In this document: positions 27,620 through 59,048 of the stretch, one piece after another
Layout of the letters: every line of letters begins with the position of its first letter
How positions within the stretch are numbered: the stretch's first letter is position 1
Assembly: GCF_022669155.1 (NCBI RefSeq)
Contig: NZ_JALBVB010000041.1
Span: forward strand, 1 to 64,000
Length of the DNA: 64,000 nt
DNA from: Kineococcus sp. TRM81007
GTDB taxonomy: Bacteria; Actinomycetota; Actinomycetes; Actinomycetales; Kineococcaceae
Reading direction: 5' to 3'
Translations under genes and position numbers: made by a program
The notes under the pieces: model-generated
The model's input: only the letters and a program-made list of their open reading frames with translations
Told to the model about the DNA's origin: nothing
The model's database searches: none

Positions 27620-27678
27620 TTGAGCTCCACGGAGACCCCAACTGAGCCGTGCACTCTGCGGCTCACCTCCTTCCCATT

Positions 27679-28677
27679 AGTGAGGTTTTCTCATCAGCTT
27701 CTTGACCGCTGACGGCGGCGGTGAGGTGTGGGCGCAGGTCAGAGCGGTGCCAAGGGTGTGGAAGTGGGCTCCCAGGCGGAAGTGGATCTCGCCAAAGCCC
27801 CACCCTTCTCGACCCCGGGAGCCCGCCGTCTCTCGTCGTGCCCGCCTCGACGTTCCCGCGCCCACCCTGCGCACGGTGACCGGCTGGATCGCCGCCGCCC
27901 GCCACGGACGAGACCGACGGCCCTGGCAGCGCGCTGCCACGGTGCACCAGCCGTGCTGCTGGTGCTGCGCTGGCTGCGCCACCGCGCCGGCTCGGCCGAT
28001 CTCGCCCACGACGCGCACGTCTGCATCGCCACGGCGTACCGCTACCTGCACGAGGGCCTCGACGTGATCGCCGCTCACGCCCCGAAGCTGCACGACGTCC
28101 TCCTCGCGGCGCGGCAGACGTACATGACCCACATCTGCCTGGACGGCACCCTCATCCCCACTGACCGGGTCGCCGCCCGCACCGAACGTGGCAACGACTC
28201 CTGACACTCGGGCAAACACCACCGCCACGGCGGCAACGTCCAGGTCCTCGCCGACCCGGCCGGGCACCCCCTGTGGATCTCCGCTGTCCGTCCCGGCGCC
28301 CGCCATGACCTAGCCCGCGCCCGCGAACTCGTCCTGCCCGCGCTTTACCCCTTCTGCCGGCTGGGACCCGACCGGCACAGCCTCCTGCCGGCCCTCGCGG
28401 ACAAGGGATACATCGGTGCCGGGATCGGTGTCCGGGTGCCCTACCGGCGCCTGGCCGGCGGCCAACGCTTGGACCGCACCGCCCGGATCTACAACCGCTG
28501 CCACGCCGACTGCGGGCGCCCGCGGAGCGGGCCATCTGCCTGCTGGTCCACTGGAGGGCCCTGGAGCACGTCACGCTCGACCCGGCCGCCCTTACCAAGA
28601 TCGCAGCCGCCGCGCTCGTCCTCACCCGCCTTGTCCTCACCCGCCTTCAGCTACCAACCCGGGGAGAAAACCTCACT
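27679..28677. mobile_element. Degraded IS5-family element
   Basis: 14-bp perfect inverted repeats AGTGAGGTTTTCTC (27679-27692) and GAGAAAACCTCACT (28664-28677) bound about 1 kb with a broken transposase. The ends are related to those of the IS5-family element at 20347-24547. Confidence 0.82.
27760..28663 (+). pseudogene. IS5-family transposase, several disruptions
   Basis: Homologous blocks: TAYRYLHEGLDVIAAHAPKL, CLDGTLIPTDRVA, then an in-frame stop at 28202 before HSGKHHRHGGNVQVL, LADKGYIGAGIGVRVPYRR, and after a further frameshift near 28515 a C-terminal VHWRALEHVTL-type segment. The N-terminus is degenerate. Nonfunctional. Confidence 0.82.
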
Positions 28678-28782
28678 GTGGCACCACGGGGGAGTGAGCC
28701 AATCCTGTGCGCTCCTCGGCGACTCTACCGGCACGAAAGATGCCCCTCGTGGAAAAGGAAGCGAGCGTGTGCCGGTCCAACG

Positions 28783-30339
28783 TTAAAGCGCTCGGCTACT
28801 GAGTTCCGGGACCTGCCTAGTCAACAGCGCAACGGAGCGACGCCAAAGCAGAAATGCCGGAGACTCATCCAGTGCTGCGCCTAGTCCCTGCGACTCCCAC
28901 ACCTCAGATGCTTGACTCGTCCGATCGTTGCACAGGTCGAACAATTCGCTAAGGCTCATGCTCCTACGTAGCACTCGCCATTCGTCGGCGTCCGCCGAGC
29001 TCAGCAGGACAAGGTTGGCAAGGAGGCCAGCTCTTGAGGGCGCTTCGCTCGTCAAGCCCGTTAGCTCACTTCGACTGAAGAGCAAGCCGTGTAGCGCGTC
29101 TGCTTCCATCAGGGAATCACCGGACAGCAGCGAGCGCGCACCTGCATTGCGCAATAGCAGATCGAAGCCGGTCGCAACAGCAGAGCCAGCGCGACGACTT
29201 CTTTTCACGAAGAGGTCGGGCTCAATGACCTTTCGCACCTCAAGAGTCGGAGCATAGTTGCCGGCGCGCATCTCTCGTACAAGGCGAGTGACGTAGGATT
29301 CGGGCTTGCTCTGGTGCTCCTCGGCGAAGGTCGATCGCCAGAACCATTCCTCTAGCTCTTGGTCAGTAACTGGCGATTGGTACAGCTTCAGCGAGAAGAG
29401 CAACAGTCGCTGAACGTCATACGGGACCTCGCGCATGCCGCGGACTTGTAGGCGTGCCAGGAAGTCCGCCACCCTATCGAGTGCAGACTGCATTTCGGAA
29501 ATTTCTCGCGTGAGTCCATCCGGCCTATTCGACAGTGTTTTTAGCTGCCGAACGTCGCGAGCGTCCAGTGACAACCCTGCTGCGATCGAAAGGCATCGTA
29601 CTAGGAAGTCTTCCGTAATTCCTTCAAGCGGTGTTCCTTGGTACCTCTCCGCGAAGACGTCGAAGGTTTCTTCCAAGTCGAAGCTGGACTGCCATGTCAG
29701 GGCCCGCACGAAGTCGACTGACGACAGTGGGGTTCCGCTACTGTTGACTCTGCGAAAGACCTCCACGACGTCCTCTAGCACCGCATTTGAAATTGCGATG
29801 ATAGGAATTTGGTAGTCCTGGAAGGTGGAATACAACTCCAGGGCTCGCGGCAGGAGCTCCTCGCCATCTTCTAGGTCGGCAATAGCTGCTTGGACATCCA
29901 AAAACCGCCGACTATCGAACAGTGAATCCATGGGGATCTGCCACGGATCTGCCAGTGCGCTGGGTCCGTGCAAGAAGGTCCCGGAGCGTGCGTCGAAGAC
30001 GACTTGATATATCGGATTTGCCTCCGCATTTCGAAGACAGCCGTAGAGGCTCGATAGCCTCTGTGCTCCGTCGAGGACAACTTCAAAGGTTGCGACCGAA
30101 TCGTCTGCAACAGGAAAAGGATCGTGTCGAAAACCCGAAAAATAGTTGTCGCCAGCTTCGACTCGCCAGGTCAGAATACTGCCTATGGGGTATCCCCTCT
30201 GGATGCTGCCCAGCAGCTCGATGACGTCTCGCTCATCCCAGACGAAGTGACGTTGAAAACGCGGAATCCTGAGTGCAGTTCGAGCGATTTGGCGGAGTAC
30301 GATATTCAGGTACTGTGCCCGCGGCTCAGGATTGTCCAT
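28783..30339 (-). CDS. DUF262 (ParB-like/GmrS-type) protein with degenerate HNH end
   Basis: 518 residues. The DUF262 core shows IPRFQRHFVWDERDVIELL (about 24-42) and LDGAQRLSSLYG, a variant of the usual DGQQR. A helical region follows. Near the C-terminus (about 410-455) ALHGLLFSRSEL and ANLVLLSSADADEW align by pattern with the HNH/DUF1524 block (HHIFP and NLxxL), but only one His and the Asn remain, so nuclease activity looks lost. Its ATG lies 14 nt inside the upstream RelA/SpoT-like gene, so the pair is coupled. Low G+C cargo. Confidence 0.8.
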   Translation of the reverse strand: MDNPEPRAQYLNIVLRQIARTALRIPRFQRHFVWDERDVIELLGSIQRGYPIGSILTWRVEAGDNYFSGFRHDPFPVADDSVATFEVVLDGAQRLSSLYGCLRNAEANPIYQVVFDARSGTFLHGPSALADPWQIPMDSLFDSRRFLDVQAAIADLEDGEELLPRALELYSTFQDYQIPIIAISNAVLEDVVEVFRRVNSSGTPLSSVDFVRALTWQSSFDLEETFDVFAERYQGTPLEGITEDFLVRCLSIAAGLSLDARDVRQLKTLSNRPDGLTREISEMQSALDRVADFLARLQVRGMREVPYDVQRLLLFSLKLYQSPVTDQELEEWFWRSTFAEEHQSKPESYVTRLVREMRAGNYAPTLEVRKVIEPDLFVKRSRRAGSAVATGFDLLLRNAGARSLLSGDSLMEADALHGLLFSRSELTGLTSEAPSRAGLLANLVLLSSADADEWRVLRRSMSLSELFDLCNDRTSQASEVWESQGLGAALDESPAFLLWRRSVALLTRQVPELSSRAL

Positions 30340-31237
30340 TTTCGTAACCCTTCAATCCCAGAAGCCGATTCTTGAGGTCCACGATGGAGGACTCGACGAA
30401 GTGGCCGGCGTGCCCGATGTAGGATGCTAAGAAATCCGGTGATTCAAACTGCCAAGCCAATTTGCGCTTTGCTACGGACTCAAGCTGCCCCGTCCTCTTC
30501 TTCTCATAAAGCAGGTGAGTCAGCTCGCCCAAGGTGTCCTGTGCTTTAGTTAGCACCTTTACTTCGAGTGCCACAGTCGTTTCCTGCCCGTCGTAACCAG
30601 GAACGGGTATTAGGATATAATGGTGACGCGCATGGTACCCCGAGTCTTTCGCATGGAAGCGAATAAAGCGTGGCAGTCCACACTCATTCGTCGCCGCAGA
30701 TATGCGTTCGCTGACGTCGACGACTCCGTCCGCGAATGGAACGACGAATTTTGTGCGAATCAGATCGTCGGCGACTTCATGGGCGCACTCAGGAGTGATC
30801 CATCGTTGCATTGACGCAGGCTTCTTCTGTGCCGATTCCATGATGGTGGGTACGAGTGGCGGCTGCGAGTACTGTGCATTCTCTTCGATGTTAATGCGAT
30901 AGAGCTTGTCGATCACGGAAGGCCACGTCTTCGGAACTATTCGGAAGCTCTGCTCCCCGTTGGCCCATGCCTCGACGCTGCTTATGCTTCCGACTATGCG
31001 CTCGCTCGAGAGCTTCGCGTGGATGTCCAATAGGGCGTCAAAGAACTTAGACTCTTGTACCCCCGACTCGACGCCCGTCATGAACGTTCGGTATCGGCTC
31101 TCCGAGCGGGCGAAGTCTGTTCCTGTCACTCGCCTCAGTTCCGTCAGCATGCTTTGATAGCCAGCTTGACCGACGACCGTCTCCGACGTAATGGCCGTGG
31201 CTTCGTCGGCGTCATCGCTGTCGGGGACGCTGCTCAT
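30326..31237 (-). CDS. RelA/SpoT-like nucleotide pyrophosphokinase-domain protein
   Basis: 303 residues. The region about 150-265 follows the alarmone-synthetase pattern: ADDLIRTKFVVPFADGVVDV matches the strand carrying the metal-binding Asp, AKDSGYHARHHYILI matches the GYRSxH nucleotide-stacking loop, and VALEVKVLTKAQDTLGELTH matches ExQxRT with the following His. The Gln and Arg of ExQxRT are Lys and Leu here, so substrate or activity may differ from (p)ppGpp synthesis. No HD hydrolase domain. First gene of a two-gene operon with a DUF262 protein; a toxSAS-like effector role is inferred. Confidence 0.65.
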   Translation of the reverse strand: MSSVPDSDDADEATAITSETVVGQAGYQSMLTELRRVTGTDFARSESRYRTFMTGVESGVQESKFFDALLDIHAKLSSERIVGSISSVEAWANGEQSFRIVPKTWPSVIDKLYRINIEENAQYSQPPLVPTIMESAQKKPASMQRWITPECAHEVADDLIRTKFVVPFADGVVDVSERISAATNECGLPRFIRFHAKDSGYHARHHYILIPVPGYDGQETTVALEVKVLTKAQDTLGELTHLLYEKKRTGQLESVAKRKLAWQFESPDFLASYIGHAGHFVESSIVDLKNRLLGLKGYENGQS

Positions 31238-35611: not shown

Positions 35612-36886
35612 GTGACGACTCAGACACCGCAGTTGGAGCACCCCTCGCACTTGAGGATGGCCGTCGTCGACGGCCCGGACGGCACGCTGGCCCGGCAAGC
35701 GCCGGCCGATCGGAACCTGGCGATCGAGCTGCGGCTGCAGCACGCGAACGGCTTCTGGTGCAGCACGCTCGCCGGGGGATGCGGCGGGACGCTGCTACTG
35801 GCCGCCGGTGCGGTGCTGCGGCCGCACTTCCGCCACCGCGGCGAGGTGGGCTCGTGCGCACTGGCGCGCGATCCAGCGCGAGCCGAGCGATCCTACGAGC
35901 ACGTGCGCTACCAGCGGGTGCTGTTGGACTGGCTCACCGACCAGGGGCTAAGCGGGCGGGCCGAGCACACGATGGGTTCCGACGGCCGCGCGGACCTGCA
36001 TGTGCTCGTCGACGGGGTGGCGCACAGCATCGAGGTCCAGCTGTCGCCGCTGAACGACCGCGCGTGGCTACAGCGCGACGAGAAGTACCGGCGGCGGGTG
36101 CGGCACGTGACGTGGCTGTACGGGCCGCTGGTGGATGCGGCCGCGGCGCGCGAGCAGGCGGTGCGCGGGATCGCGCTCCGCGTTCGCGGCGACGTCGAGA
36201 GCGGCGACGTCGAGATCGGCGTGCAAGGCCACACCGAGACGGCGTGGGCCCCGCTGTCGCAGTGCCGCCTGCCCGCTGACGGGTTCTGGACACCGCACCT
36301 GCTGGCCGCTCAGCGCGAGCACGAGCGGGTGCTGCGCCAGCGCGCCGAGCAGGTCGAGCACGAGGCGCGCGAGAGGCTCGAGTGCGAGCGAGCGGCACGG
36401 GTCCAGAGGGAGCGGGTAGCGCGCGAGCGGTCGGTGCGACGGCAGGCTGCTCTGGCGCGAGTCACCAGAGCAGCCCTGCCGCTGCGGCCGGTCCACGAGG
36501 TTGCTGTGATGCCACCGGACAACAACCTGGCCCGAGGCGGCTTGGCACAGCATGAGGGTGCCGGCGGATCCGCCTCGGCGGCCGCAGTCGTCGAAGCGGC
36601 CAGGTGGCCGAGGTCGACGGCAGAATGGCGAGAGCTGCACCCGGAGGCCGACGAGTGGAGCGCACGCCAGGACTGGAGTTGGCTGGCCGTGATCGGCGAG
36701 CCGTACCGCAAGGTGGTGCAGTTCCTGGCATACCTGACACAGCGGATCTACCTCAACGGGCCAACAGCGATGTTCGACCTGCCCGACACGTCAAATCTCG
36801 AGGAAGTGCTGGTTCTGATGCAACGAGCCGGGCTGATCCGACGCTTCGAGCGGGCCGGGGTCGAGCGGTGGGAGCGCGCAGGCTGA
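35612..36886 (+). CDS. CoiA-like competence/nuclease-fold protein
   Basis: 424 residues. GGTLLLAAGAVLRPHFRHRG matches the N-terminal zinc/His region of CoiA-like proteins. SDGRADLHVLVDGVAHSIEV followed by Gln (about residues 122-142) is a PD-(D/E)xK-type core (Asp, Glu, Gln), and RHVTWLYG ends the domain. A long Arg/Glu-rich coiled coil (about 225-290) and a helical C-terminus follow. GTG start. CoiA acts in recombination during natural transformation; relatives on mobile elements may process incoming DNA. Confidence 0.72.
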   Translation: MTTQTPQLEHPSHLRMAVVDGPDGTLARQAPADRNLAIELRLQHANGFWCSTLAGGCGGTLLLAAGAVLRPHFRHRGEVGSCALARDPARAERSYEHVRYQRVLLDWLTDQGLSGRAEHTMGSDGRADLHVLVDGVAHSIEVQLSPLNDRAWLQRDEKYRRRVRHVTWLYGPLVDAAAAREQAVRGIALRVRGDVESGDVEIGVQGHTETAWAPLSQCRLPADGFWTPHLLAAQREHERVLRQRAEQVEHEARERLECERAARVQRERVARERSVRRQAALARVTRAALPLRPVHEVAVMPPDNNLARGGLAQHEGAGGSASAAAVVEAARWPRSTAEWRELHPEADEWSARQDWSWLAVIGEPYRKVVQFLAYLTQRIYLNGPTAMFDLPDTSNLEEVLVLMQRAGLIRRFERAGVERWERAG

Positions 36887-43782: not shown

Positions 43783-45251
43783 ACCTCCTCCGCCCCCAAC
43801 CCCGAGCCCGCGCCGTTCCACCAGCGTGGGGCTGGCGCGCACCACGTGCCGGCCGTGTGGCGCACGTGGCCAGCGCCCCCGAGTACCAGGCCACGACCGT
43901 GCAGGCGTGCGGGCTGTTCCCCTTCGTCGCCGGCTCCGGCTCGCCCTCGGTGGGCGTTCCCGTCGGCCGACACATGATGTGGGGCGAGGTCGTCTGCATG
44001 GACCCCTTCGCCTGGCTCGACGCGGGCCTCGTCACCAACCGCGGCCTCACCGTCCTCGGGCAGCCCGGCACCGGCAAGTCCGCCATGCTCAAGCGGCTGT
44101 CCCGGGGGATGCTCGCCTTCGGCGTCCGGCCGCTGTTCCTCGGCGACCTCAAACCCGACTACTCATCCGTCGTAACCGCCGCGGGTGGGCAGGTGCTGCG
44201 GGTGGGGCGTGGCCTCGACCGCATCAACCCCCTCGACGCCGGGCCGCTCGGCGCCGCGCTGACGCGCCTGTCCGGCAGCGCCGCGCAACGCCTCCGCCTG
44301 GAGGTCCGCGGACGCCGCCTGTCGGCCACCCTGGCACTCTGCTCGCTCGTCCGGCGCCACGACCGCGTCAACAACGGCGAGGAAACCGTCCTCGGTGCAG
44401 CCGTCGACCTGCTCACCGACCGCCTGCCCGACGGCGTCGACCCCACCATCCCGGATGTGCTGTGCGTCATTCGGGAGAGCCCGGACCGCCTCGTGGCCGC
44501 CGCCGAGGTGGACGACGGACCGGCCTACCGCGCCGAGACGAAGGAGCTGCGCCAGACCCTCAACCTGCTCTGCGAGGGATCGCTCAAGGGCGTGTTCGAC
44601 GGCCCGACCTCTCGTCCGATCGACCTCGACGCACCCGCCGTGAGCGTCGACATCTCCGCCGTCGCCGCGTCCGGGGACACCCTCGTCGCCGCAGCGATGC
44701 TGTCGACCTGGTCCTACGGGTTCGCCGTCATCGACGCCTCCACCGCGCTGGCCGAGGCGGGCCTCGCCCCGCGCCGGCGGTACTTCGCCGTCATGGACGA
44801 GCTCTGGCGAGCCCTGCGCGGAGCGCCCGGCCTCGTCGACCACGCAGACGCCTTGACCCGCGTCTACCGCGGCCGGGACGTCGCGCACGCCATGGCCACG
44901 CACTCCCTCGACGACCTCGCTGCGCTGCCGAGCGAGGAGGACCGCTCCAAGGCCCGTGGATTCATCGAGCGCAACGCCATCACGGTCCTGGCCGGCCTGC
45001 CGCCGCGGGAGCTGGAAGAAGTCACCCGGGTCGTCTCGCTGTCCAGCCGCGAGGTGTCGATGGTCTCGTCGTGGTCGGCGCCGGAGTCCTGGCAGACCGG
45101 CGCCCGCCACCCCGGCCGCGGGAAGTACCTGCTCAAGACCGGCCAGCGTGTCGGCATCCCCGTCGAGATGGAACTCGTCGGCAACGAACCCGCCCTCTAC
45201 GACACCGATAGCAGCCACCGGGCCGTTGTCCAGAGGGAGGAGGAGGCGTGA
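43779..45251 (+). CDS. VirB4/TraE-like T4SS ATPase
   Basis: 490 residues: Walker A GQPGTGKSAM (about 92-101), LKPDYSSVV, Walker B YFAVMDELWRAL (about 332-343) and a following Arg-rich segment. It lacks the VirB4 N-terminal domain, which is in the preceding gene, so ATPase and N-domain are encoded separately. It would power channel assembly and substrate transfer. ATGA overlap on both sides. Confidence 0.9.
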   Translation: MNLLRPQPRARAVPPAWGWRAPRAGRVAHVASAPEYQATTVQACGLFPFVAGSGSPSVGVPVGRHMMWGEVVCMDPFAWLDAGLVTNRGLTVLGQPGTGKSAMLKRLSRGMLAFGVRPLFLGDLKPDYSSVVTAAGGQVLRVGRGLDRINPLDAGPLGAALTRLSGSAAQRLRLEVRGRRLSATLALCSLVRRHDRVNNGEETVLGAAVDLLTDRLPDGVDPTIPDVLCVIRESPDRLVAAAEVDDGPAYRAETKELRQTLNLLCEGSLKGVFDGPTSRPIDLDAPAVSVDISAVAASGDTLVAAAMLSTWSYGFAVIDASTALAEAGLAPRRRYFAVMDELWRALRGAPGLVDHADALTRVYRGRDVAHAMATHSLDDLAALPSEEDRSKARGFIERNAITVLAGLPPRELEEVTRVVSLSSREVSMVSSWSAPESWQTGARHPGRGKYLLKTGQRVGIPVEMELVGNEPALYDTDSSHRAVVQREEEA

Positions 45252-47032
45252 GCCGCCCGCTCGAACCCTCCGGCGGGTTCCTGCCGCCGGAGAGCCGCTT
45301 CCCGATGCTGCTCGTCGCCGCCGTCTGGGGTGGTGTCGTCCTCGCTGGCGCGGCGTGGTCGGGGGGTGCGGCCGCGAGCTGGATCACCGGGCACGGCTGG
45401 CAGGGACCGGCCTTCGGGGTGGACTTCGCACGGGCCCTCCTGACCGAGGGGCCGCCCCGGTTGTGGCCGGCGGCCCCAGCGGCCGTCGTGTGGGCGGGCG
45501 TGCTGACGGCCGTCGTCGCCGTCGTAATGCTCGGAGTGGGGCTCGTGCTCGCCTGGCGGCGGACGGTCGGTACGACCAGCCCGCACGGCCTGGCCGGACC
45601 GCGCGACCTCGCGAACCTGTTGCCGCCGGCCAGCGTGCAGCGGGCCCGGTCGCTGCGGCCGTCGCTGGCAGCCTCCGCGGAGGAACCGTCCGGGGCTGCC
45701 CTCGGGATCACCCTTGGCGTCTTGGCAGGAACGTCGCACCGGCGACGGGGCGATCGGACGGTGCGGGCGTCGTGGGAGGACGTCCTGCTGGCCGTCATGG
45801 CACCCCGGGCAGGGAAGACCACCTCCCTGGCCGTTCCGACGGTGCTGGACGCGCCCGGTGCGGTGGTGGCGACGTCGAACAAGTCCGACCTGTGGGCCGC
45901 GACCGCGACGCTGCGGGCCGCTGACACCGGCGAGGCGGTGTGGACGTTCGACCCGCAGGCCATCACCGGCACCGCGCAGACGTGGTGGTGGAACCCGCTG
46001 ACGGCTGTGACGTCGGTGGAGGAGGCGTCCCGGCTGGCCGGGCACTTCGTGCAGGAGGTCCGCGGGGAGAAGTCCGCCCGCGACTTCTGGAGCTCCGCCG
46101 CGCACGACCTGCTGACCGCCCTGCTGCTGGCAGCCGCGGCGTCGCAGCGCACGCTGCACGACGTCTACGAGTGGCTCAACGACCCCGTCATCCCCACCCC
46201 GGCCGCGCTGCTGCGCGAGCACGGCTACCACGCCATCGCCGCCTCCCTCACCGGCCGGCAGAACGGTGCTCCGGAGACCCGTGACGGCGTCTACGAGACC
46301 GCCCGCACCGCGGCGCAGTGCCTGCGCGACGACGCCATCATGGCCTGGGTCACCCCACCGGCCACAGACCTGCCGCAGCTGGACACCGCCGGCTTCGCGA
46401 CCTCGCGGCAGACACTGTTCCTGCTGTCCAAGGACGGGGCGGGCGCCGCCGGGCCGCTGGTGGCGGCACTGACCGACCGGGTCATGCGCGACGGGGTACG
46501 TGCCGCGGAACGCCGCGGTGGGCGACTGGACCCGCCGATGGTCGTCGTTCTCGACGAGGCCGCCAACGTGTGCCGCATCTCCGACCTGCCCGACCTGTAC
46601 AGCCACCTCGGCTCCCGCGGCATCGTGCCGCTGACGATCCTGCAGTCGTACCGCCAGGGCGTGCGGGTGTGGGGGGAGACGGGCATGGACACGTTGTGGT
46701 CGGCGGCCACGGTGAAGCTGCTCGGGGCCGGCATCGACGATGCCAAGCTCGCCGAGGACGTCTCCCGCCTCATCGGCGACCACGACGTGACCGTCCGCTC
46801 CTTCTCCGACGGCGACCGCCGGCGCAGCACTTCCACGTCGCTGCGCCGCCAGCGGATCCTGCCGCCGGAAGACGTCCGGGCACTCGATCGCGGGACGGCC
46901 CTGCTGCTCGCGACGGGGCTGCGGGTGGCGAGGCTGACGTTGCTGCCGTACTACCGGGGACCGCGGGCCGCGGAGATCACTGCTGCGCTGGAGAAGGCGA
47001 CCGCCGACGCCGTCACGGCGGGTCCGCGGTGA
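45248..47032 (+). CDS. VirD4/TraG-like type IV coupling protein
   Basis: 594 residues. Two N-terminal membrane helices (about 18-40 and 78-100), then the coupling-protein ATPase: Walker A MAPRAGKTTSLAVP (about 184-197), TSNKSDLW, Walker B PMVVVLDEAANVCRI (about 427-441) and the TraM-recognition-like ILQSYRQGVRVWGE. It would deliver the relaxase-DNA complex to the channel. GTG start overlapping the previous stop. Confidence 0.92.
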   Translation: MSRPLEPSGGFLPPESRFPMLLVAAVWGGVVLAGAAWSGGAAASWITGHGWQGPAFGVDFARALLTEGPPRLWPAAPAAVVWAGVLTAVVAVVMLGVGLVLAWRRTVGTTSPHGLAGPRDLANLLPPASVQRARSLRPSLAASAEEPSGAALGITLGVLAGTSHRRRGDRTVRASWEDVLLAVMAPRAGKTTSLAVPTVLDAPGAVVATSNKSDLWAATATLRAADTGEAVWTFDPQAITGTAQTWWWNPLTAVTSVEEASRLAGHFVQEVRGEKSARDFWSSAAHDLLTALLLAAAASQRTLHDVYEWLNDPVIPTPAALLREHGYHAIAASLTGRQNGAPETRDGVYETARTAAQCLRDDAIMAWVTPPATDLPQLDTAGFATSRQTLFLLSKDGAGAAGPLVAALTDRVMRDGVRAAERRGGRLDPPMVVVLDEAANVCRISDLPDLYSHLGSRGIVPLTILQSYRQGVRVWGETGMDTLWSAATVKLLGAGIDDAKLAEDVSRLIGDHDVTVRSFSDGDRRRSTSTSLRRQRILPPEDVRALDRGTALLLATGLRVARLTLLPYYRGPRAAEITAALEKATADAVTAGPR

Positions 47033-47478
47033 GCGGCGCACTTGCCGACGGTGAGCCGGACTGGGCTGCTGAGGAGACGGCGGCCCGCATCGCTCGCCTC
47101 GAGCTGCGTGTCGACGAGCTCGACGCCCTGTTCCCTGAGCCTGGCGGTCAGCCCGCCCGGACCGGTGTGCCCGTCGCCTACGACAGCCTGGACGCGTGGG
47201 TGGAGGACTACTTCGCCACCACCTTCACGCGCCCGCTCGGTGGGGAGTGGCGCTGGTGCGCCCGCTGGCGCGAGCACCCCGAGGCCGTCGTCCGGCTGAA
47301 TGCGCTGTGGCACGCGTTCGAGGCGCTGCGCCGCGACCCGGACACCGGCATGGCGATCTGGCTCCGTGATCACCTCGACCATCAGCTCACCGTTCTGCTG
47401 GGGTCGAGGGGGCCGTTCGCGCAGTGCTCGATCACACGACACGAGGGGCTGCGCCCTTTACCCATCGATGCGATCTAA
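47029..47478 (+). CDS. DUF4913 protein
   Basis: 149 residues. VAYDSLDAWVEDYFATTFTR and WRWCARWREHPEAVVRLNAL are the DUF4913 signature seen at the end of actinomycete conjugation operons. It has an N-terminal coiled coil (about 10-35). Function unknown. GTGA overlap with the coupling protein gene; last member of the T4SS operon. Confidence 0.85.
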   Translation: MSGALADGEPDWAAEETAARIARLELRVDELDALFPEPGGQPARTGVPVAYDSLDAWVEDYFATTFTRPLGGEWRWCARWREHPEAVVRLNALWHAFEALRRDPDTGMAIWLRDHLDHQLTVLLGSRGPFAQCSITRHEGLRPLPIDAI

Positions 47479-47538
47479 GACGAGTCCGTAAGGCTAGGGC
47501 GCTACGCGATCGAGTGGTGCTGCTGACACAATCAGCAC

Positions 47539-47793
47539 ATGTCGCCGCTTGCCCCCAGGCTCCATGTCTTGGCCACCGCTTACGCGGGCGCTCACACCTT
47601 GAGTAAGGACGACATGGAGAGCGCCGAGACCTATGTGCGCATCCAGGCGATGAAGAATCTCTTTTCGGCGCCCACCACCGTCCGCAAGGATAACGCTATT
47701 GCGTCGACGGTCCTATGGGACGACAGCAAGCCGAAGCTCGGCTTGCTTCCTGAAAAATGCATGCGCCCGCTTCGCGAGATTGCTCTAAATTGA
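47539..47793 (+). CDS. Small first component of the Avs-like operon
   Basis: 84 residues: RLHVLATAYAGAHTLSKDDM and ETYVRIQAMKNLFSAP, ending MRPLREIALN. Helical, no known family. Its stop overlaps the ATG of the giant STAND gene (ATGA), so the two are translationally coupled. It resembles in size and placement the small middle components of three-gene defence systems, but I see no sequence match. Confidence 0.6.
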   Translation: MSPLAPRLHVLATAYAGAHTLSKDDMESAETYVRIQAMKNLFSAPTTVRKDNAIASTVLWDDSKPKLGLLPEKCMRPLREIALN

Positions 47794-50700
47794 TGGCACA
47801 GGCGGATCTTCTCAGGGATAGTCGAGATGGAGATCAGTTCCACTACCACTGGGCTGCCCGGCAAGCCCTTCGACTGTTGCAGCCTGGTACCGACCTAGCC
47901 GCCATCGTCATCGAGGGCGTTTCCACTGACGATACGGCCGATACGAGCGGCGATGAGGTAGTCGATCTCGCCGAGTACTGGGGGTCCCTTGCCCTCGGCA
48001 GCGCAACCAAAGTCATCTACAAACAACTGAAGCACTCCACCGAGGCCCCTGACAAGGAACGCACCTCTTCATACCTCCGAAAAACCCTGATCGGATTTGC
48101 CAAGAAGTATCGATCGGTGCTGGAGGAGTATCCAAGCGCCGCCGATCGGGTGTGGTTCGAGTTCGTATCCGTACCTCCGCTCGCTGACCAGGTAAGGACA
48201 GCGCTGGAAGACATCCAAACAGGACGGGATGCACTCGCCCCTCGCGCCGCTCAATACATCCGAGAACAACTAGGAACGTCACTGACCGACGAGCAGTCGC
48301 GCTCCTTCGTTAGTCGGCTTATTCTCCGCGACCGTGAACCCGGGCTCGTAAGCCTGCGCCAGGAACTTCGATCCCAGGTTTCGTCGTTCCTACCCGGAGC
48401 TGCTGCAGCGCACGATCTGCTTTTGCGGGAAATGGTTTCGACCCGCGCATCGTCCATCGCAGGCTTCGATCCCATCATCACCCGCACGACCGTCCTGAGC
48501 ACTCTTCAAGCAACTGAAGATGATCTTCTTCCTGCGCCGAACTTGATCGACACCCCTGCACCAGTGATCGAGCTGCCGCAGGTCGCCGAGTTGGCGCAGA
48601 TTCTCGTCGACGCGTCAGCGCCGGTGCTGGCTCACGCCACCGGGGGCATGGGCAAGAGCGTGCTTGCGTCAACCATCGGAGGCTCGCTACCGCGAGGGTC
48701 GGTGACACTGGTCTACGACTGCTTCGGCGCTGGGACGTACCGCCGGCTGAGCAGTAGGCGGCACGAACACCGCCAAGCCTTTTTGCAACTTTCCAACGAG
48801 CTGGCCGCGAAAGGCCTGTGCGGACCGGTTCTTCCGTCGGACACCGCGAACTCACGCGCCTACATGCGGATCTTTCTGGATCGAGTCGCCACCGCCGCAC
48901 GTACCGTGGCCGAGAATTCGCCTGAAGCGATCCTCCTTCTGGTCATCGACGCTGCCGACAACGCGGTGATGGCAGCTGGCGATGCCGGTACCGCAGCGTT
49001 CGTCTCTGACCTCATCCGAGAAGACCTCCCTTCATGCACCCGCCTCCTCATCCTGTGCCGGACCGAGCGCCGGAGCCTGCTGAACCCGCCGCCCGCCTGC
49101 ATCGATGTGCCTCTGCGCGGCTTCAACGAGGAGCACAGTACCGCTCACCTGACGAGCCGCTTCGGTCCGGCAAGTAAAGCCGACGGCGCAGAATTCCATC
49201 GCCTCACCCATGGCAACCCGCGGGTGCAGGCCCTGGTGATGCAGAACGCATCGAGCGTCGAGAGTGTCTTGCAATCCCTGGGGGAAGTGCAGCACGACGG
49301 TAGCGACCTCTTCGCGGACCTGATGACGCGCAGACTGAATGAGATCCGAGAGGAGTTCGGTGGAGCGGCCGACCAGATCGACCGCCTCTGCCGAGCCATG
49401 GCAGCGCTGCGTCCTCGCATTCCCGTCGACGTACTCGCCGCGATCGCCGGCGTCGAGCCGACGTTCATCCGCTCCTTCGCCGCCGAGTTCGACCGATCCA
49501 TATTCTTCGATCAGGACACCGTTCAGTTCCGAGACGAGCCGACCGAGACGTGGTTCCGTTCCACATTTCGTCCAAGCAGAGACGCGCTGCTGTCCTTGAT
49601 CGGAGACGTCCGCCCGCTCGCCGAAGTGCACCCGTACCTGTCGGCGACACTGCCTCAGTTGCTCTACGAGGCAGGTCTGGTCCGAGAGCTCGTGGATCTA
49701 GCCTTGTCATCCGACGGTCTGGCCGCCGCAAGTGACTTAGAGCAACGCGAGATCGCTCACCAGCGCGCTCAGTTCGCCCTCAAGGCCGCGCTGCGCGACG
49801 GCCGCGAGGTTGATGCCGCCCGACTTGCATGGACCGCTGGTGGCTTGCACGCCGGGGAGACGCGTCGCGTGAAGCTCATCAGGGGCAACACGGACCTGGC
49901 TGGGGAGTTCCTCGACGGGGAGACCATCGACTCCCTCCTGGCAGGCCGAGCGCTGGCTGGCGAGTGGCCGGGCTCGCACTTGCACATGGAAGGAGCCTTG
50001 CTGGCCGCCACCGGTGATGTACACCTGGCCAGGAACCGTTTGCGCAGCGCTCAGGACTGGATGCGGCAGTGGATCCGGCAGGCCGTCGCCAGGGGCGAAG
50101 ATCATAAAGTCTCCGACGACGACATCGCCGAGCTCGCCTACGGAATCCTAACCGTCTCCGGTGCAGCTGCGTGTGTGGACTTCCTGGGCGCCTGGTCCCC
50201 CTCGTGGGTGGCGTATCAAGTGGGACGGCGAGTTGCGGGCCGCCTCGTCGATCGCAACAAGGTCGGAGAGCTCGAGGAGCTCGCCGTCGCCGCAGGCAAG
50301 GTCGAGCGCCTGCAGCTCGCGGTGGTCAGTGTCGCGCTCGAAGCAGGCGTCCTGCTGGGACCCGCAGCGGTTCGGCGCACGATCCGGATGCTCAAGAAGC
50401 ACCGCGCTCCGATCAACCTCGGCGCCGAGGAGCTCACCGGACTCGGTGCTGGCCACCGCGCTGGCATGGGCGCACTCCCCATCGCATGGGTTTTGAGTTT
50501 AGGTACGCGCCACGGTGTGGTGGACATGACGCAAGCCCGTAGAATCATAATGCGGTATTTGCCCGCGACTTTGGGCCACGATGCCGGTAGCTGGTTCGAC
50601 CACGGTGCAGGAACACGAGGCCTGTTGTTCGCCTTCACCCTCGACTCGGTGCTGCGCGATGAAGAGCTCGATGTCTCATCCATCGCCCCGCCAGGCGTGC

Positions 50701-53700
50701 GCAAGGATTGGAAGGCGAGCGGAGCACCCCGCACCCGCCAACTGGCGGACTTCACCTCCAACGTCCTTCCTCTCACTCGGTGGATGAGGCTGTACGTGGA
50801 AGCGGTCACCAGAGAGGCACCCGACGCAGCTGCACTTTCAAGCCAGTTCGACGCTCTCGCCGGGGCTGATTTCAAGACCTACGGTGACTACGAGACTCCG
50901 CGTCTGCTGATCAACAGCATCGCCCGCCTCGCTGTCCGTCTCCTGTCCCAGCTGCCAGTACGCGTCGAGCGCAATGACTTCTTCAATCGTTGGGCGACTG
51001 AAAACTTCCGGCACCTCACCTGGGCCACGGTCATTGACGTGGTGCGCATCAGCTCACGCTGCGAGGACTTGCACGAGCTGAACGTGGAGCTGGCTGCTCT
51101 GCTGCGCGACGCGTTGCAGAGAGATGACTCACCGGCCGAAGAACGCTATGAAGCGCTGGTGTCCCTCGCGCGAGCCACCTACGCGTTCGATCCGGAGGAG
51201 TCGCGTGCCGACTTCGACAGGGCGCTGGAGATCACCTCCCGCCTCGGGGAGGACGTGCACGACCGCTGGAGGGCTCTGGGGCGCATCGCCGAGCACGCGT
51301 GCGGTTCCCAGGAGCAGCCGGCACAGGCTTACCGCCTGGCGCAAGTCGCTGAAAGCCTGCAGTCCTACCTGGGTGGGGACTCCACCGTCGCGATCGACGT
51401 GCTCCCCCAGATTCAGGGGTTTAGCGCTGCCGCCGGTGTCGCGATAGCCGCACGCTGGCGCGACCGCCGGGTGGCATCCCTTGGCCAGCTCGCGCGCGCT
51501 TTGACCAGCAGTGACGCTGCTCCCACCAGCGCTGACCCGCGGTGGGCCCTGGGCATGCTCCCGATGGGAGCTGAAGTCAGCCACGCCCACCTCAACAGAC
51601 TTGGCCCGCCTGGGAGTGCAGCACGCGCGGATGCTGAGGCTGTGATCGATGAGTGGTTCCGGCCCCTCAAGTCCAGTGGATCAGCGATGAGCTCCACTGC
51701 ACTCGGCGGAACCGCCGACTCATCTCACATCACCGCGGATGCTTTTAGATCGGATCCCGAGGAGCTTCTGACTGCTGAGCTGTTCGCCGACTTCGACCTG
51801 ACCACACCCGCCAGTTGGGACGCTGCAGTACGCGTGGCCGGTGATGGTAGGCGCGAGTGGCTTCGTAAGGAGCTGCTGTTGGACCACGCCGCGAGATGTC
51901 CGCTAAACAGGTTGAGGACGGTGCTTGAGGCAGCCGCGGACTCATCCCTGATGCAGCCCCATGACTACAACGGGGTCATCGAGCGGCTCGCCGCGCGACC
52001 TGGCCGACTGCCGCAAGCAGCGCGTGGAGCAGTTGCACAGCTGATCGACCGGCTTGTCGAGCGATTCGCCAAGAAGATGACCGCGAGCGGGTACGACCCG
52101 ATCGATCTTCAGGCTGTCGAGTCGCTGTGTGGCCGTACGCCTGCCTCGGTGGGTGCGGAGGCGCTCCGCCAGCTCGGCTCCGTGCCCGAGCTGCTCACCT
52201 CGCGCGAGTGCTACGAGCTCGTCGCCCGGTTGACTAGCCGGGCACACCCGTCAGACAACGCTGCGGTTCTGACCGATGCGCTCGAGAGCTTTTCGCAGGT
52301 CGCAGCCGCTGACGCGTGCGACGGATCCTTCGAGCACCTACCTGTTCCTCCTGAAGACCTGGCCGTGTGCATCGCAGCGTTCGTGTGGTGCGCCGCTGGC
52401 GACCCCGCGAAGACCACGCGCTGGAACGCTGCGCACACCATCCGGCTCTGGGTGGCCCTTGGCTGTACGGACCTGGTGGAGTCGCTGGTGCGTTGCGCCA
52501 TCGGTGACGTGGACGTGACTGCGTTCGTCGGGTCAGGTCTCGTCTTCTACGACAAGCACGCGCTGATGTGGACCGTAATGGCCCTGGCGCGCGCCTGTGA
52601 TGATCACCGGTCCCTCGCCAGTCTGATCAAGGTGACACCGCTGGTTCCCTTGCTGCACCGCATCATTTTCACTGATCCTCCGAACGCTGTGTTGCAGCAC
52701 AGCGCTCGCGACGTGCTAAGGCGCTTGCACGAGGTCGGTGACATCGCCCTGACACCGGAAGAGCTCCAGCACCTGATTACGATCAATCGTCCTGCTGTGA
52801 TCGTCGAAGAGCAGTATGGATCGCGACCCATGGCGACGTCGGTGCGGCTGGACGGACCTAGCACCGCCGCGGACCCGTCGTTAGCCGGTGAGAAACCACA
52901 ACTGTCAGGGAGGTCGGAGGCTGACACGCGCTTCTCGTTCTTCATGGACTTCCAAGATCACTGGTGTGGTCAGCTGGGTCGTGCCTTCGGCGTCACCGGC
53001 CAGCGCGTCCTGCAGCTGGTCGACGAGGTAATCGTCGACAGGTGGAGATCGCCGTTCAGGGGTGGCATTGACGACGACCACCGCCATGGGCTGAAGTTGT
53101 ACGGCGACGGCGGCACGTATGTGCACAAGTTCAGCTGGCCCGAAGAGGAAGATCTCGACTTCTACCTCGCCCTTCACGCCCTCTACCAAGTCGCCGGACA
53201 CCTCGCACGCCACTACCCGGTCTATCGGTCGTCGAAGGACGACCGGGACGACTTCGCGCAGTGGCTCGACGACCACGTCCCCACTCGCCACGACGGACGG
53301 TGGGTCTTCGACCGCCGCGACCCCGTGCCGGCCCATCTCGCGCGCACCGACCCCTCCTCGCAGGCCGGTTCTTCCGAGCTGAGCAGGAGTGAGTGGCTCT
53401 GCGACGTCCCTGCGTCTCGGTTCACCCCAATTCTCGCGCCCAGCGACGGGTGGGTGACCCTCGACGGGAACTGGACCGCGACCTTCTGGGACCGCTACGA
53501 AACGGTGACGGTACGCAGCGCACTCGTCGAGCAGGGTGTTGCTCGCGCTCTCGTGGCCGCCCTTCGCACCGCACCCGACCTGCACGCCATCCACTTGCCG
53601 AGCGAATCCGACCACGATGACATCCCTACTGATCTTGCTAAGCACTACTGCGTCTTGGACGCCGTCGAAGACAGCCACCCGGGTGCAGGCATCGACACCC

Positions 53701-54074
53701 ATGACCCGAACGCGGCCGGCATCAACTGGCCCCCCACGCGGCCGTCCGGCACGGTCGTCGCAGCGCTGGAGCTCACCGCGGATCGCGACCTGCGCGAATG
53801 GGGGAACGCACGAGGACATCAGGTCACGACATCAGTGTGGAGCACCGGGTCCGAGCGGGGTTCCTCCGGACACCGGATCCAGATCCGCGGTTCAGCGCTA
53901 GCGCAACTGCTGACCAGCGAGCAGCGCGCTCTCATCGTCTCGATCAGGATCAGCAGAAGCATCGACAGCAGGTACCGACCCGCGGACGAGGACGATGCCA
54001 CGCAAGCTCGCCAACCCCACATCAAGTTCTTCCTCCTTCGAGCAGACGGGACCGACGTTGAGTTCGTCGACTGA
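47793..54074 (+). CDS. Avs-like STAND NTPase with N-terminal Cap4/DUF4297-like nuclease
   Basis: 2,093 residues from ATG 47793. The N-terminus reads as a Cap4-type PD-(D/E)xK nuclease: GDQFHYHWAARQALRLL, an acidic IEG near 40, and YKQLKHS near 76-82, corresponding to the QxK strand. The STAND NTPase has Walker A ATGGMGKSVLA near 285 and Walker B ILLLVIDAADNA near 385-395. A very long helical, repeat-like sensor region follows, then a distinct C-terminal domain (about 1700-2093, FFMDFQDHWCGQLGRAFGV). Avs proteins detect phage proteins and then cleave DNA. Homology to a specific Avs class is not shown. Lower G+C than the T4SS genes. Confidence 0.75.
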   Translation: MAQADLLRDSRDGDQFHYHWAARQALRLLQPGTDLAAIVIEGVSTDDTADTSGDEVVDLAEYWGSLALGSATKVIYKQLKHSTEAPDKERTSSYLRKTLIGFAKKYRSVLEEYPSAADRVWFEFVSVPPLADQVRTALEDIQTGRDALAPRAAQYIREQLGTSLTDEQSRSFVSRLILRDREPGLVSLRQELRSQVSSFLPGAAAAHDLLLREMVSTRASSIAGFDPIITRTTVLSTLQATEDDLLPAPNLIDTPAPVIELPQVAELAQILVDASAPVLAHATGGMGKSVLASTIGGSLPRGSVTLVYDCFGAGTYRRLSSRRHEHRQAFLQLSNELAAKGLCGPVLPSDTANSRAYMRIFLDRVATAARTVAENSPEAILLLVIDAADNAVMAAGDAGTAAFVSDLIREDLPSCTRLLILCRTERRSLLNPPPACIDVPLRGFNEEHSTAHLTSRFGPASKADGAEFHRLTHGNPRVQALVMQNASSVESVLQSLGEVQHDGSDLFADLMTRRLNEIREEFGGAADQIDRLCRAMAALRPRIPVDVLAAIAGVEPTFIRSFAAEFDRSIFFDQDTVQFRDEPTETWFRSTFRPSRDALLSLIGDVRPLAEVHPYLSATLPQLLYEAGLVRELVDLALSSDGLAAASDLEQREIAHQRAQFALKAALRDGREVDAARLAWTAGGLHAGETRRVKLIRGNTDLAGEFLDGETIDSLLAGRALAGEWPGSHLHMEGALLAATGDVHLARNRLRSAQDWMRQWIRQAVARGEDHKVSDDDIAELAYGILTVSGAAACVDFLGAWSPSWVAYQVGRRVAGRLVDRNKVGELEELAVAAGKVERLQLAVVSVALEAGVLLGPAAVRRTIRMLKKHRAPINLGAEELTGLGAGHRAGMGALPIAWVLSLGTRHGVVDMTQARRIIMRYLPATLGHDAGSWFDHGAGTRGLLFAFTLDSVLRDEELDVSSIAPPGVRKDWKASGAPRTRQLADFTSNVLPLTRWMRLYVEAVTREAPDAAALSSQFDALAGADFKTYGDYETPRLLINSIARLAVRLLSQLPVRVERNDFFNRWATENFRHLTWATVIDVVRISSRCEDLHELNVELAALLRDALQRDDSPAEERYEALVSLARATYAFDPEESRADFDRALEITSRLGEDVHDRWRALGRIAEHACGSQEQPAQAYRLAQVAESLQSYLGGDSTVAIDVLPQIQGFSAAAGVAIAARWRDRRVASLGQLARALTSSDAAPTSADPRWALGMLPMGAEVSHAHLNRLGPPGSAARADAEAVIDEWFRPLKSSGSAMSSTALGGTADSSHITADAFRSDPEELLTAELFADFDLTTPASWDAAVRVAGDGRREWLRKELLLDHAARCPLNRLRTVLEAAADSSLMQPHDYNGVIERLAARPGRLPQAARGAVAQLIDRLVERFAKKMTASGYDPIDLQAVESLCGRTPASVGAEALRQLGSVPELLTSRECYELVARLTSRAHPSDNAAVLTDALESFSQVAAADACDGSFEHLPVPPEDLAVCIAAFVWCAAGDPAKTTRWNAAHTIRLWVALGCTDLVESLVRCAIGDVDVTAFVGSGLVFYDKHALMWTVMALARACDDHRSLASLIKVTPLVPLLHRIIFTDPPNAVLQHSARDVLRRLHEVGDIALTPEELQHLITINRPAVIVEEQYGSRPMATSVRLDGPSTAADPSLAGEKPQLSGRSEADTRFSFFMDFQDHWCGQLGRAFGVTGQRVLQLVDEVIVDRWRSPFRGGIDDDHRHGLKLYGDGGTYVHKFSWPEEEDLDFYLALHALYQVAGHLARHYPVYRSSKDDRDDFAQWLDDHVPTRHDGRWVFDRRDPVPAHLARTDPSSQAGSSELSRSEWLCDVPASRFTPILAPSDGWVTLDGNWTATFWDRYETVTVRSALVEQGVARALVAALRTAPDLHAIHLPSESDHDDIPTDLAKHYCVLDAVEDSHPGAGIDTHDPNAAGINWPPTRPSGTVVAALELTADRDLREWGNARGHQVTTSVWSTGSERGSSGHRIQIRGSALAQLLTSEQRALIVSIRISRSIDSRYRPADEDDATQARQPHIKFFLLRADGTDVEFVD

Positions 54075-54810
54075 CAAGATCCTTGAACTCGGCAAGCAAC
54101 TGGCCGCTGCCATGGAGGATTGGGACGTCCTGGGGCGCTGGATGGCGCACTACGTCGCTGAACTGATCGTCACTGCGGATGAAGCGAGCGGCGAGCACGA
54201 AGCTCTAGCAGCGAAATCCCGAGCAGCTCAGGAGATCCGCTTACTATGGTCCCACCGTGCAGCGATGCGCCGACCTTACCCGATGGAGAACTTTGATCGA
54301 ATCCTCACTGCTTTGGACCATCTTGAAGATCCCACGGCCCGAAGCCCTTTGAGACGTTACTTCGGTGACGATGCGCCGAGTGAGGCTGACCTCAGGATGA
54401 CGCCGCTCTTAGAGATCGCCGTCCACCTCGACGAAGAAATCAGCGCTGTCATCGCCTGCTTGATTGCTGAAGCGGCCGCCACCGCGGAGAACGCGGAGGC
54501 ACGCTGGGTGCCGGCCGCGGTAGAGCTCGAGGAGGTCCAGCGAAGGCTAGCCCTACGCAAGCTGAGATCGATGGTCCGCCGCAGTCATCTGGGGACACGA
54601 GAACAGCCGCTGGCTCTCGACACCTACACAGCTGGAATAGCGCCAGCCGACGAGGCGGCCACCGACGAGGCATTGGTCGATGAATCAGCGAACGAGCAAC
54701 TGGACCAGGAGAACACTGCCGCCAGGAAAGAAGCCTTGATGGAAGCGCTCGACCAAGTGATCGAGACGTTGAGCCAGCTGCGATCCACCGTATCTGATAC
54801 GGCCTCGTAG
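53995..54810 (+). CDS. Third component of the Avs-like operon, hypothetical
   Basis: 271 residues from ATG 53995, which overlaps the STAND gene by 80 bp in another frame. ATG 54112 (MEDWDVLGRWMAHYVAELIV) is a shorter alternative. All helical, with an acidic C-terminal region (DEAATDEALVDESANEQLDQ). No recognised family. The overlap indicates that it belongs to the same transcript. Confidence 0.65.
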   Translation: MPRKLANPTSSSSSFEQTGPTLSSSTDKILELGKQLAAAMEDWDVLGRWMAHYVAELIVTADEASGEHEALAAKSRAAQEIRLLWSHRAAMRRPYPMENFDRILTALDHLEDPTARSPLRRYFGDDAPSEADLRMTPLLEIAVHLDEEISAVIACLIAEAAATAENAEARWVPAAVELEEVQRRLALRKLRSMVRRSHLGTREQPLALDTYTAGIAPADEAATDEALVDESANEQLDQENTAARKEALMEALDQVIETLSQLRSTVSDTAS

Positions 54811-54943
54811 GCATGCCTGAGGCTCTTTTCATTACGGCCTGCGGAGTAGTCGCGGTGGCTCGAGGCTGCGGCCATGGCCAAGGATGGAGCGCCAACCTTC
54901 CGATGGCGACGTCGGTTGCTTCGAACCAAGCTGATGGCCCACT

Positions 54944-54990
54944 GAGGCGTTGTCAGTAGCGGCGCGATCAGCCGCTATTGACAGTTCCTC
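54944..54990. repeat. Second IS5-end palindrome
   Basis: GAGGCGTTGTCAGTAGCGGC (54944-54963), spacer GCGATCA, GCCGCTATTGACAGTTCCTC (54971-54990); the arms match at 16 of 20 positions. Flanked on both sides by ACT. Related to the palindrome at 24993 and to the IS5-family ends. Lies between the convergent Avs-like and relaxase operons; no gene in 54811-54996. Confidence 0.8.
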
Positions 54991-54996
54991 ACTCTG

Positions 54997-56355
54997 CTAC
55001 TTGCCTATGCTGCTAATCTTGTGACCCTTTTCGCCAAGGAATGAGTTGCGGCGAGCGCGTGTGGCATTTTTGTCCTGGAGTGAAGATGTAAGATGGCGCT
55101 GATTATTCCCGTCGAATTTCTTTCGGGTATCGACCAGGTGCTCGACGGTGTCGAGTACCTCGACGACAATCGAGGTGAGGTCGTTCGCTCGGCTGATCGG
55201 GTTTCTGATGAGGGCACGCGCTGCAACTATCACATGATCGTGTCTCGCGGCCTTGGGTCTGCGCGAAGCGCGTGACACGCGATCAAGGTGATCGGCTCGC
55301 TGCGTCAAGGGCCCTCCCCGGATTCCTTCGAGAGAGCGGGCAAGGACGAGTGCCAGGGTGATCGCCGAGCGGCGGATGTGTTGGATGTCGTTCGGCGCGT
55401 AGTGACCGGCGCGCAGTCGGCGGATCGTGGAGCGAAGCGCCACGACGTGCCGCTCGAAGTCCTCGTTGCTGAAGTCAGTGGTGATTCCCTTGGCGGTTCT
55501 CCTCACGCCGGGCGGCTTCGTCCACCGCTGCTCAAGGCGGCTCAGGCTGAGGTCGGCGGCGAGCTTGGACCCGCCGAACCACACCGGCGCGCCCGAACTG
55601 TTGTGGTCGCCCGGGCGGGCGACGGAGTAGCCCGTCACCTGGCCGGGGTCCTGGGTGCTGTAGCGGGGGCGGACGAGCAGACCGACGCGGCGCAGTCGGT
55701 CGAAGAAGTCCGCGGGACCGTCGGCGGCGACCGCGGCGAGGCGGACCTCGCGGCGCAGGAAGTCGCGACTGGTCTCGCGCCGGCCCGCGCGCTGGTGCTT
55801 CTCGGTCTCGGCGCGGGTGGGAAGGCGGGGGCCGGTGCGGTCGCGGGGTGCGGTGCGCCGCAGGTCGTAGTGGACTTCGAGGTCTCGGCAGGCGGCACCG
55901 ACGGCGTAGAAGTCGTTGCGGGTGCGCGCGGGCTGGCCGTCTTGGCGGGCGAGGGTGACGGCGAGGTGGATGTGGTCCTCGGCGTGGCGGACGGCGACCC
56001 ACCGGCACCCGTCGGCGTCGTCGCGCGGGGCGAGGCCGACGCGGTCGAGGACGGTGCGGGCGACGTGGTCCCACTCGGCGTTGCTCAGCTGGCGATCCTC
56101 TGGAGCCAGACGTAGGGAGCAGTGCCACACGCTCGTCGACGGCTGGCGCACGAGGGCGGCCAGCGGCTGGTCGAGCAGGTCGGCGAGCGGGCGGACGTCG
56201 TGCCGGCCGCCACGGAAAGCGGGTTCCAGCGCCTGCAGGTCATCGCTCCAGGCGGCGACGAGATGCGGGTCGGTGTGCTCGTTGGTGCGGCCGGGGCCGT
56301 ACAGGTACCACAGCAGCTTGCGGACGCCGTTGCCCTTGGTGACCTTGCCAATCAC
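54997..56355 (-). CDS. Conjugative relaxase
   Basis: 452 residues from GTG 56355, which overlaps the upstream stop (GTGA). The N-terminal KGNGVRKLLWYLYGPGRTNE carries candidate catalytic tyrosines (Tyr17, Tyr19). Metal-binding motif RHAEDHIHLAV has His124, His128 and His130, the HxxxHxH arrangement of MOBP/MOBQ-like relaxases. It should nick oriT and pilot the DNA to the VirD4-like protein. The C-terminal 150 residues are basic, with lower G+C, near the IS-end palindrome. Confidence 0.88.
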   Translation of the reverse strand: MIGKVTKGNGVRKLLWYLYGPGRTNEHTDPHLVAAWSDDLQALEPAFRGGRHDVRPLADLLDQPLAALVRQPSTSVWHCSLRLAPEDRQLSNAEWDHVARTVLDRVGLAPRDDADGCRWVAVRHAEDHIHLAVTLARQDGQPARTRNDFYAVGAACRDLEVHYDLRRTAPRDRTGPRLPTRAETEKHQRAGRRETSRDFLRREVRLAAVAADGPADFFDRLRRVGLLVRPRYSTQDPGQVTGYSVARPGDHNSSGAPVWFGGSKLAADLSLSRLEQRWTKPPGVRRTAKGITTDFSNEDFERHVVALRSTIRRLRAGHYAPNDIQHIRRSAITLALVLARSLEGIRGGPLTQRADHLDRVSRASRRPKAARHDHVIVAARALIRNPISRANDLTSIVVEVLDTVEHLVDTRKKFDGNNQRHLTSSLQDKNATRARRNSFLGEKGHKISSIGK

Positions 56356-57215
56356 GGCGTGGCTGCCTCGTCGGGCACGGCGAGCTGCTCGCGGGCCTCC
56401 TGCCGGATGCGCTGGGCGGTACGCACCGAGACGGGGAAACCGGCAGCGTCCAGTGCCTGCGCCAGGGCGGCCGCGGTGACGTCCGGCTGGTCGCGGACGA
56501 TCGCCGCGGCGACGGAGAGGCGGTCCGCCTTCCCGGATGTGCTGGGTCGCGGGCGGGAAGGGTGTTCCGGTGCTGTCGGCTGAGGGAGCGGGCGCGGCAG
56601 CGCTGCCTCTGCGGCGGGTAGCGGCGTGGGCTCGGGGCGCGCAACGGCGGGTGCAGGCTCCGCGGGGTCGGTGAGGACGCTGGTGCGCCAGGTCGTCCAC
56701 GTCTGCCGGGGCGCCAGAGCCCACCGCACGGGGCGGAAGCGCGCGTCGGTGGCGTCACTGCCGCGCTCACGCAGGGCCTGGCGGCGGGCGGCGGTGACGA
56801 CGGTCTCGAAGCACACGACGAACATCGCCGAGGGCACCGCGTGCAGGAGCCGGCCGACGAGGTGGGGGGAGGAGGCGCCGTTGGCGAGCACGGTGGCGAT
56901 CGACAGGATCAGGACGAGGGCGCGCAGCACCGGCGCGGTGCGCCCGGCGCGGGCGGCCAGCAGCACCTTCAAGCTGAGCACGACGATCCCCACGTCGAAG
57001 GACAGCGGGACGACCGGCGCCAGCCAGCCCGGGAACTGCCCGACCTCGACGGCCAGGTCGCGCAGGGTCGTGTAGCTGGAGACGAACCCGGTGACGATGA
57101 GCACCGCCACCCCGACGCCGGCGGCGCGTTCGGCGAGCACGTCGAACGACGCGGCCGGGGAACGGGACGCCGAGGCGCGGTGGGTGAGCCAGTCGTCGGC
57201 GTTCGCGGTGCTCAC
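56352..57215 (-). CDS. DUF2637 (Spd-like) membrane protein with HTH end
   Basis: 287 residues from GTG 57215. Four membrane helices (about 30-150: VGVAVLIVTGFVSSYTTL; PVVPLSFDVGIVVLSLKVLL; ALVLILSIATVLANG; AMFVVCFETVV), then a Pro/Ala-rich linker and a C-terminal helix-turn-helix-like stretch, VAAAIVRDQPDVTAAALAQA. DUF2637 proteins are typical of actinomycete plasmids and ICEs, where Spd relatives affect intramycelial spread. GTGA overlaps with neighbours. Confidence 0.85.
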   Translation of the reverse strand: MSTANADDWLTHRASASRSPAASFDVLAERAAGVGVAVLIVTGFVSSYTTLRDLAVEVGQFPGWLAPVVPLSFDVGIVVLSLKVLLAARAGRTAPVLRALVLILSIATVLANGASSPHLVGRLLHAVPSAMFVVCFETVVTAARRQALRERGSDATDARFRPVRWALAPRQTWTTWRTSVLTDPAEPAPAVARPEPTPLPAAEAALPRPLPQPTAPEHPSRPRPSTSGKADRLSVAAAIVRDQPDVTAAALAQALDAAGFPVSVRTAQRIRQEAREQLAVPDEAATP

Positions 57216-59031: not shown

Positions 59032-59048
59032 CTTGTAATCGGGCGGTT
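59032..59048. other. attR core of the ICE
   Basis: CTTGTAATCGGGCGGTT, identical to 14159-14175. Left neighbours are element sequence, right neighbours are the displaced host tRNA 3' part. Confidence 0.92.

Follow-up and report, generated by a model that had tools for sequence, protein, structure and literature searches.

An avs3a–avs3b operon as a probable divergent AVAST type 3 defence system in a cargo slot of a putative actinobacterial conjugative element

Introduction

The window, that is, the whole stretch of 64,000 nucleotides of Kineococcus sp. TRM81007 DNA that was analysed, carries three consecutive ORFs on its plus strand that encode proteins of 84, 2,093 and 271 amino acids. A preliminary description had placed these ORFs at the positions at which they are found here, and had proposed that coupling of a small and a third gene to a giant Avs-like protein makes a variant defence system. 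The locus thus raises the question of whether the operon encodes such a variant or a copy of a system that is already known. The genes concerned are as follows.

47539-47793, plus strand: 84-aa orphan ORF with a coding-like base pattern, a possible leader cistron
47793-54074, plus strand: avs3a, encoding a 2,093-aa AVAST type 3 nuclease/STAND protein with PADLOC, NCBIfam and PDB 8dgc matches
53995-54810, plus strand: avs3b, encoding a 271-aa all-helical partner with PADLOC and NCBIfam Avs3b matches

The operon of avs3a and avs3b very probably represents a divergent actinobacterial member of the AVAST type 3 (Avs3) defence systems, lodged in a slot of variable cargo in a putative integrative conjugative element.

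Organization of the operon

The 84-aa ORF and avs3a are joined by a TGATG sequence with an overlap of 1 nucleotide, in which the TGA stop codon occupies 47791-47793 and the ATG start codon 47793-47795, and not by the ATGA overlap described previously. The 80-bp overlap reported between the second and third ORFs is correct and covers 53995-54074. The avs3a product would be 2,105 aa long if an upstream ATG at 47757 is the start. At 0.61-0.66, the G+C content of the operon is distinctly below the 0.73-0.75 of the flanking conjugation genes.

A scan for promoter and terminator consensus sequences gave no match at either end of the operon, as would be expected if the operon were decayed or silent cargo. 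However, such scans are weak for actinobacterial promoters, the avs3a and avs3b frames are both intact and every catalytic motif is present, so that decay or silence of the operon is highly improbable.

Structure and conservation of Avs3a

Avs3a gives 1358.5 bits against the PADLOC Avs3a model and 1472.5 bits against NCBIfam NF041816 (AVAST type 3 nuclease/ATPase Avs3a), below the cut-off of 2800 bits, and it aligns with the sequence of PDB 8dgc (SeAvs3) at 883 bits in two stretches, residues 4-1229 and 1411-2088. These family models and the PDB match confirm the N-terminal nuclease and the STAND/NACHT part, in line with the Cap4-like nuclease/STAND protein of the preliminary description. The N-terminus is a PD-(D/E)xK-like nuclease with residues E41, D58, Q78 and K80, and the STAND NTPase contains Walker A (GGMGKS, 284-289) and Walker B (VIDAADN, 384-390) motifs. 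The remainder consists of a helical-repeat sensor followed by a C-terminal region.

A comparison of 70 Avs3a proteins shows that E41, D58 and Q78 are present in all of them and K80 in 69, and that the G-x-G-K residues of Walker A (G285, G287 and K288) and D386 of Walker B are invariant. Sensor regions 801-1100 and 1201-1500 are among the least conserved parts, with 16-24% identity, and about 30% identity is kept in the C-terminal region. The domain at about 1700-2093, formerly regarded as unassigned, aligns with SeAvs3 and is conserved in the 70 proteins. A new C-terminal domain has been ruled out, as the region is the regular Avs3 C-terminus (8dgc alignment, 1411-2088).

The nearest full-length relatives of Avs3a are found in Streptomyces and are only about 40% identical to it, and the protein falls within a well-supported clade of actinobacterial Avs3a. 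The NCBIfam equivalog cut-offs of 2800 bits for Avs3a and 200 bits for Avs3b are naming thresholds rather than biological defining features. In the class, seven genomes were found to bear Avs3a and all of them score below its cut-off, which thus appears to fit near relatives of the seed proteins. The scores of Avs3a and Avs3b below these cut-offs therefore point to divergent members of the family, and, together with a best identity of about 40%, they suggest that the trigger may differ from that of the studied Avs3 proteins.

Comparison with known systems

The locus shares with AVAST type 3 (NF041816/NF041817; PADLOC Avs3a/Avs3b) the gene order, the gene overlap, the nuclease and Walker motifs, protein sizes of about 2,090 aa and 210-270 aa, and a full-length alignment of Avs3a. 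A Cap4/DUF4297-type nuclease, a STAND NTPase and a long C-terminal sensor are all found in the large protein with intact residues, and avs3b lies downstream. The window copy differs from the type in being at best about 40% identical to its Streptomyces relatives, in scoring below the equivalog cut-offs, in its weakly conserved sensor and in having an extra orphan 84-aa ORF upstream. The nuclease and STAND motifs of SeAvs3 from Salmonella enterica (PDB 8dgc) align with those of Avs3a, whereas residues 1230-1410 align poorly. Cap4/DUF4297-type proteins such as those of HerA-DUF4297 and CBASS Cap4 have the same kind of N-terminal nuclease. In the window, however, this nuclease is fused to a STAND NTPase and a large sensor, and a CD-NTase or HerA gene is absent nearby.

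Pairing of Avs3a with Avs3b

The 271-aa protein matches the PADLOC Avs3b model with 82.3 bits (E = 1e-23) and NCBIfam NF041817 also with 82.3 bits, below the cut-off of 200. Because homology to Avs3b starts only at about residue 25-32 of the 271-aa ORF, an internal start, for example the TTG at 54058, is possible. The AF2 model is all helix (pLDDT 77), in agreement with the earlier reading of the protein as helical, and a fold search with this model among solved and viral structures (PDB and BFVD) gave no significant match.

An Avs3a alignment run against about 85,000 species genomes yielded 80 loci, 75 of which have an Avs3a frame and room downstream and form the base of the adjacency count. 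Avs3b lies directly downstream of Avs3a in 73 of these 75 loci, mostly overlapping it; counted from the first possible start, the overlap spans 11 to 194 bases, with two exceptions among the 73. The pairwise identities of Avs3a and Avs3b are tightly correlated over 68 pairs (Mantel r = 0.934, a value matched by 0 of 2000 permutations), a correlation to which shared host descent adds. Such constant adjacency and tight co-divergence indicate that the pair is the rule. On this sequence evidence the type 3 system ordinarily consists of Avs3a together with Avs3b, and the pair is not a variant. The view that Avs proteins usually act alone does not apply here, because type 3 is annotated as an Avs3a and Avs3b pair in both NCBIfam and PADLOC, in keeping with the adjacency count. 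Family membership, intact motifs, the A–B pairing and the mobile context of avs3a–avs3b are established here, and the two genes are a divergent actinobacterial copy of the known two-gene Avs3 system, not a new system.

No published discussion of Avs3b was found in the literature searched. Made from an overlapping frame, Avs3b would be a co-inherited helical partner that most likely binds or regulates Avs3a. Given its near-universal pairing with Avs3a, what Avs3b does is a question that lends itself to clean testing.

Nature of the upstream 84-aa ORF

The 84-aa ORF starts 60 bases past the DUF4913 gene, inside the cargo slot. Its G+C content by codon position is coding-like (0.56/0.45/0.75), and its third-position excess equals that of avs3a and was not reproduced in 20,000 shuffles. 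There is no obvious Shine-Dalgarno sequence before the start of this ORF or before that of avs3a. The encoded protein has no match in Pfam, PADLOC, NCBIfam or PHROGs, and no relative of it was found in plasmids, phages or IMG/VR viral contigs. About 790 genome searches within its order and class gave only weak matches running through stop codons; those in G458, G463 and G076, two of which were read out, all cross stop codons and were taken as chance. An ABC-3C-like middle component was considered as the identity of the protein and rejected for want of a Pfam match. The AF2 model of the protein is of low confidence (pLDDT 50).

Conservation of the genes flanking the STAND gene, expected for a variant system, holds for only one of the two: Avs3b is regularly adjacent, whereas a relative of the 84-aa protein is present among the ORFs of none of the 80 other Avs3a loci. 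At other loci the ORFs preceding avs3a bear no relation to the 84-aa ORF and mostly none to each other, and some loci lack a coupled upstream ORF. The coding-like base pattern, the position past the DUF4913 stop codon within the cargo slot and the one-base junction with avs3a would all suit an Avs3 variant of three components, with the 84-aa protein serving as a working subunit such as a sensor adaptor, an inhibitor or an antitoxin-like guard. However, no relative stands beside any of the 80 Avs3a genes or in any collection searched, the upstream ORFs of other loci are unrelated or uncoupled, and the fold model is of low confidence, so that a working subunit is unlikely and a three-component Avs variant is unsupported. 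Even less probable is a role of the 84-aa protein as third functional subunit, or as guard, in a lineage-specific Avs3 subtype with a sensor trigger other than terminase. The proposal of a variant system built from coupled small and third genes thus loses its ground, because the third gene is a standard avs3b and the small one, the only truly unusual part of the locus, is not conserved.

The lack of relatives, of a visible Shine-Dalgarno sequence and of a promoter match, together with the low-confidence fold model, would also fit an 84-aa ORF that is open by chance or is left over from an unrelated cargo gene. This is a serious possibility, though not the favoured one; against it stand the third-position G+C excess, which is as large as in avs3a and absent from the shuffles, and the exact TGATG junction. 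Because neither start has an obvious Shine-Dalgarno sequence, the most likely role of the 84-aa ORF is that of a leader cistron specific to its lineage, which would feed the translation of avs3a through the TGATG junction, rather than that of a working component.

Proposed mechanism of Avs3a action

The nucleases of Avs1-Avs4 cleave phage and host DNA upon recognition of the terminase large subunit or portal (PMC12931631), and dimerisation of the Avs3 nuclease domain is mediated by the STAND domain (PMC12198126). The intact motifs make the mechanism of these relatives likely for the avs3a copy, to which its trigger, oligomerisation and DNA cutting are carried over by analogy. In the most likely course, the C-terminal helical sensor of Avs3a would bind some conserved phage protein, which by analogy would be the large terminase subunit. 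Oligomerisation of the STAND NTPase in the bound protein would then bring the N-terminal nuclease domains together, and the joined nucleases may cut phage and host DNA, thereby stopping the infection.

The putative conjugative element and its cargo slot

The element and the backbone genes around the operon are as follows.

14128-59048, no strand assigned: integrated, putatively conjugative element with a tRNA-Thr attachment site, an integrase, TraG and a 17-bp direct repeat
14128-14201: tRNA-Thr, adjoining the integrase, a likely element end
14174-15466, minus strand: tyrosine integrase
45248-47032: TraG-type coupling protein
47044-47478, plus strand: DUF4913 backbone gene, left boundary of the slot (Pfam PF16259, 111.9 bits)
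54997-56388, minus strand: relaxase-like backbone gene, right boundary of the slot, named by an HxxxHIH-type motif and its neighbours

The integrase, TraG, tRNA-Thr and the direct repeat are all present, and the relaxase is named by its motif and synteny only. The 17-bp repeat occurs at 14159 and again 45 kb away at 59032 (59032-59048) and is a piece of the tRNA-Thr anticodon region. The tRNA-Thr/integrase and this repeat likely mark the ends of the element. The flanks of the element are adjacent in a relative of the same genus (G464) with another tRNA-Thr between them; because the joined flanks are separated by a different tRNA-Thr, G464 was rejected as an exact empty site and taken as supporting synteny only.

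The relaxase-like gene product has no match in Pfam. Of 297 genomes of the order, 41 contain relatives of the gene, and in seven relatives it keeps a collinear arrangement with TraG and accessory transfer genes. DUF4913-kind genes come after TraG in the related elements that were read. Related elements within the order keep the ATPase-TraG-DUF4913 block and the relaxase-like gene but vary in what lies between DUF4913 and the latter: L134 has a HATPase protein, L135 Lamassu LmuA/LmuB, L136 a PIN-TPR-GreABC-type protein, and L137 DUF6119 and GIY-YIG proteins. Such variable content supports the operon as cargo and points to a defence-rich slot. With the lower G+C content and the location within an integrated element, it bears out the preliminary description of the operon as cargo, here of a T4SS-bearing element. 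Lamassu shares this slot with Avs3, but its ATPase and effector are unrelated to those of the window system. A complete, divergent Avs3a–Avs3b pair is hereby placed on a putative actinobacterial conjugative element, and the slot that DUF4913 and the relaxase-like gene enclose offers a lead for mining other defence systems.

The slot, at 47478-54997 in the window, is filled differently not only in L134-L137 but also in L129, L131 and L132, its contents including Lamassu and several defence-like genes. A second island of low G+C content lies within the element on the minus strand (25394-31237) and may be an uncharacterised defence operon. It encodes a GmrSD_N/DUF262 protein (28783-30339), whose best PADLOC match is PDC-M55C with 164.6 bits, a 303-aa protein whose gene overlaps that of the GmrSD_N/DUF262 protein, and a 741-aa protein; neither of the latter two matches Pfam or PADLOC. 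Also in the element, on the plus strand at 35612-36886, is a gene whose product contains a CoiA-like nuclease domain (Pfam PF06054, 32.9 bits).
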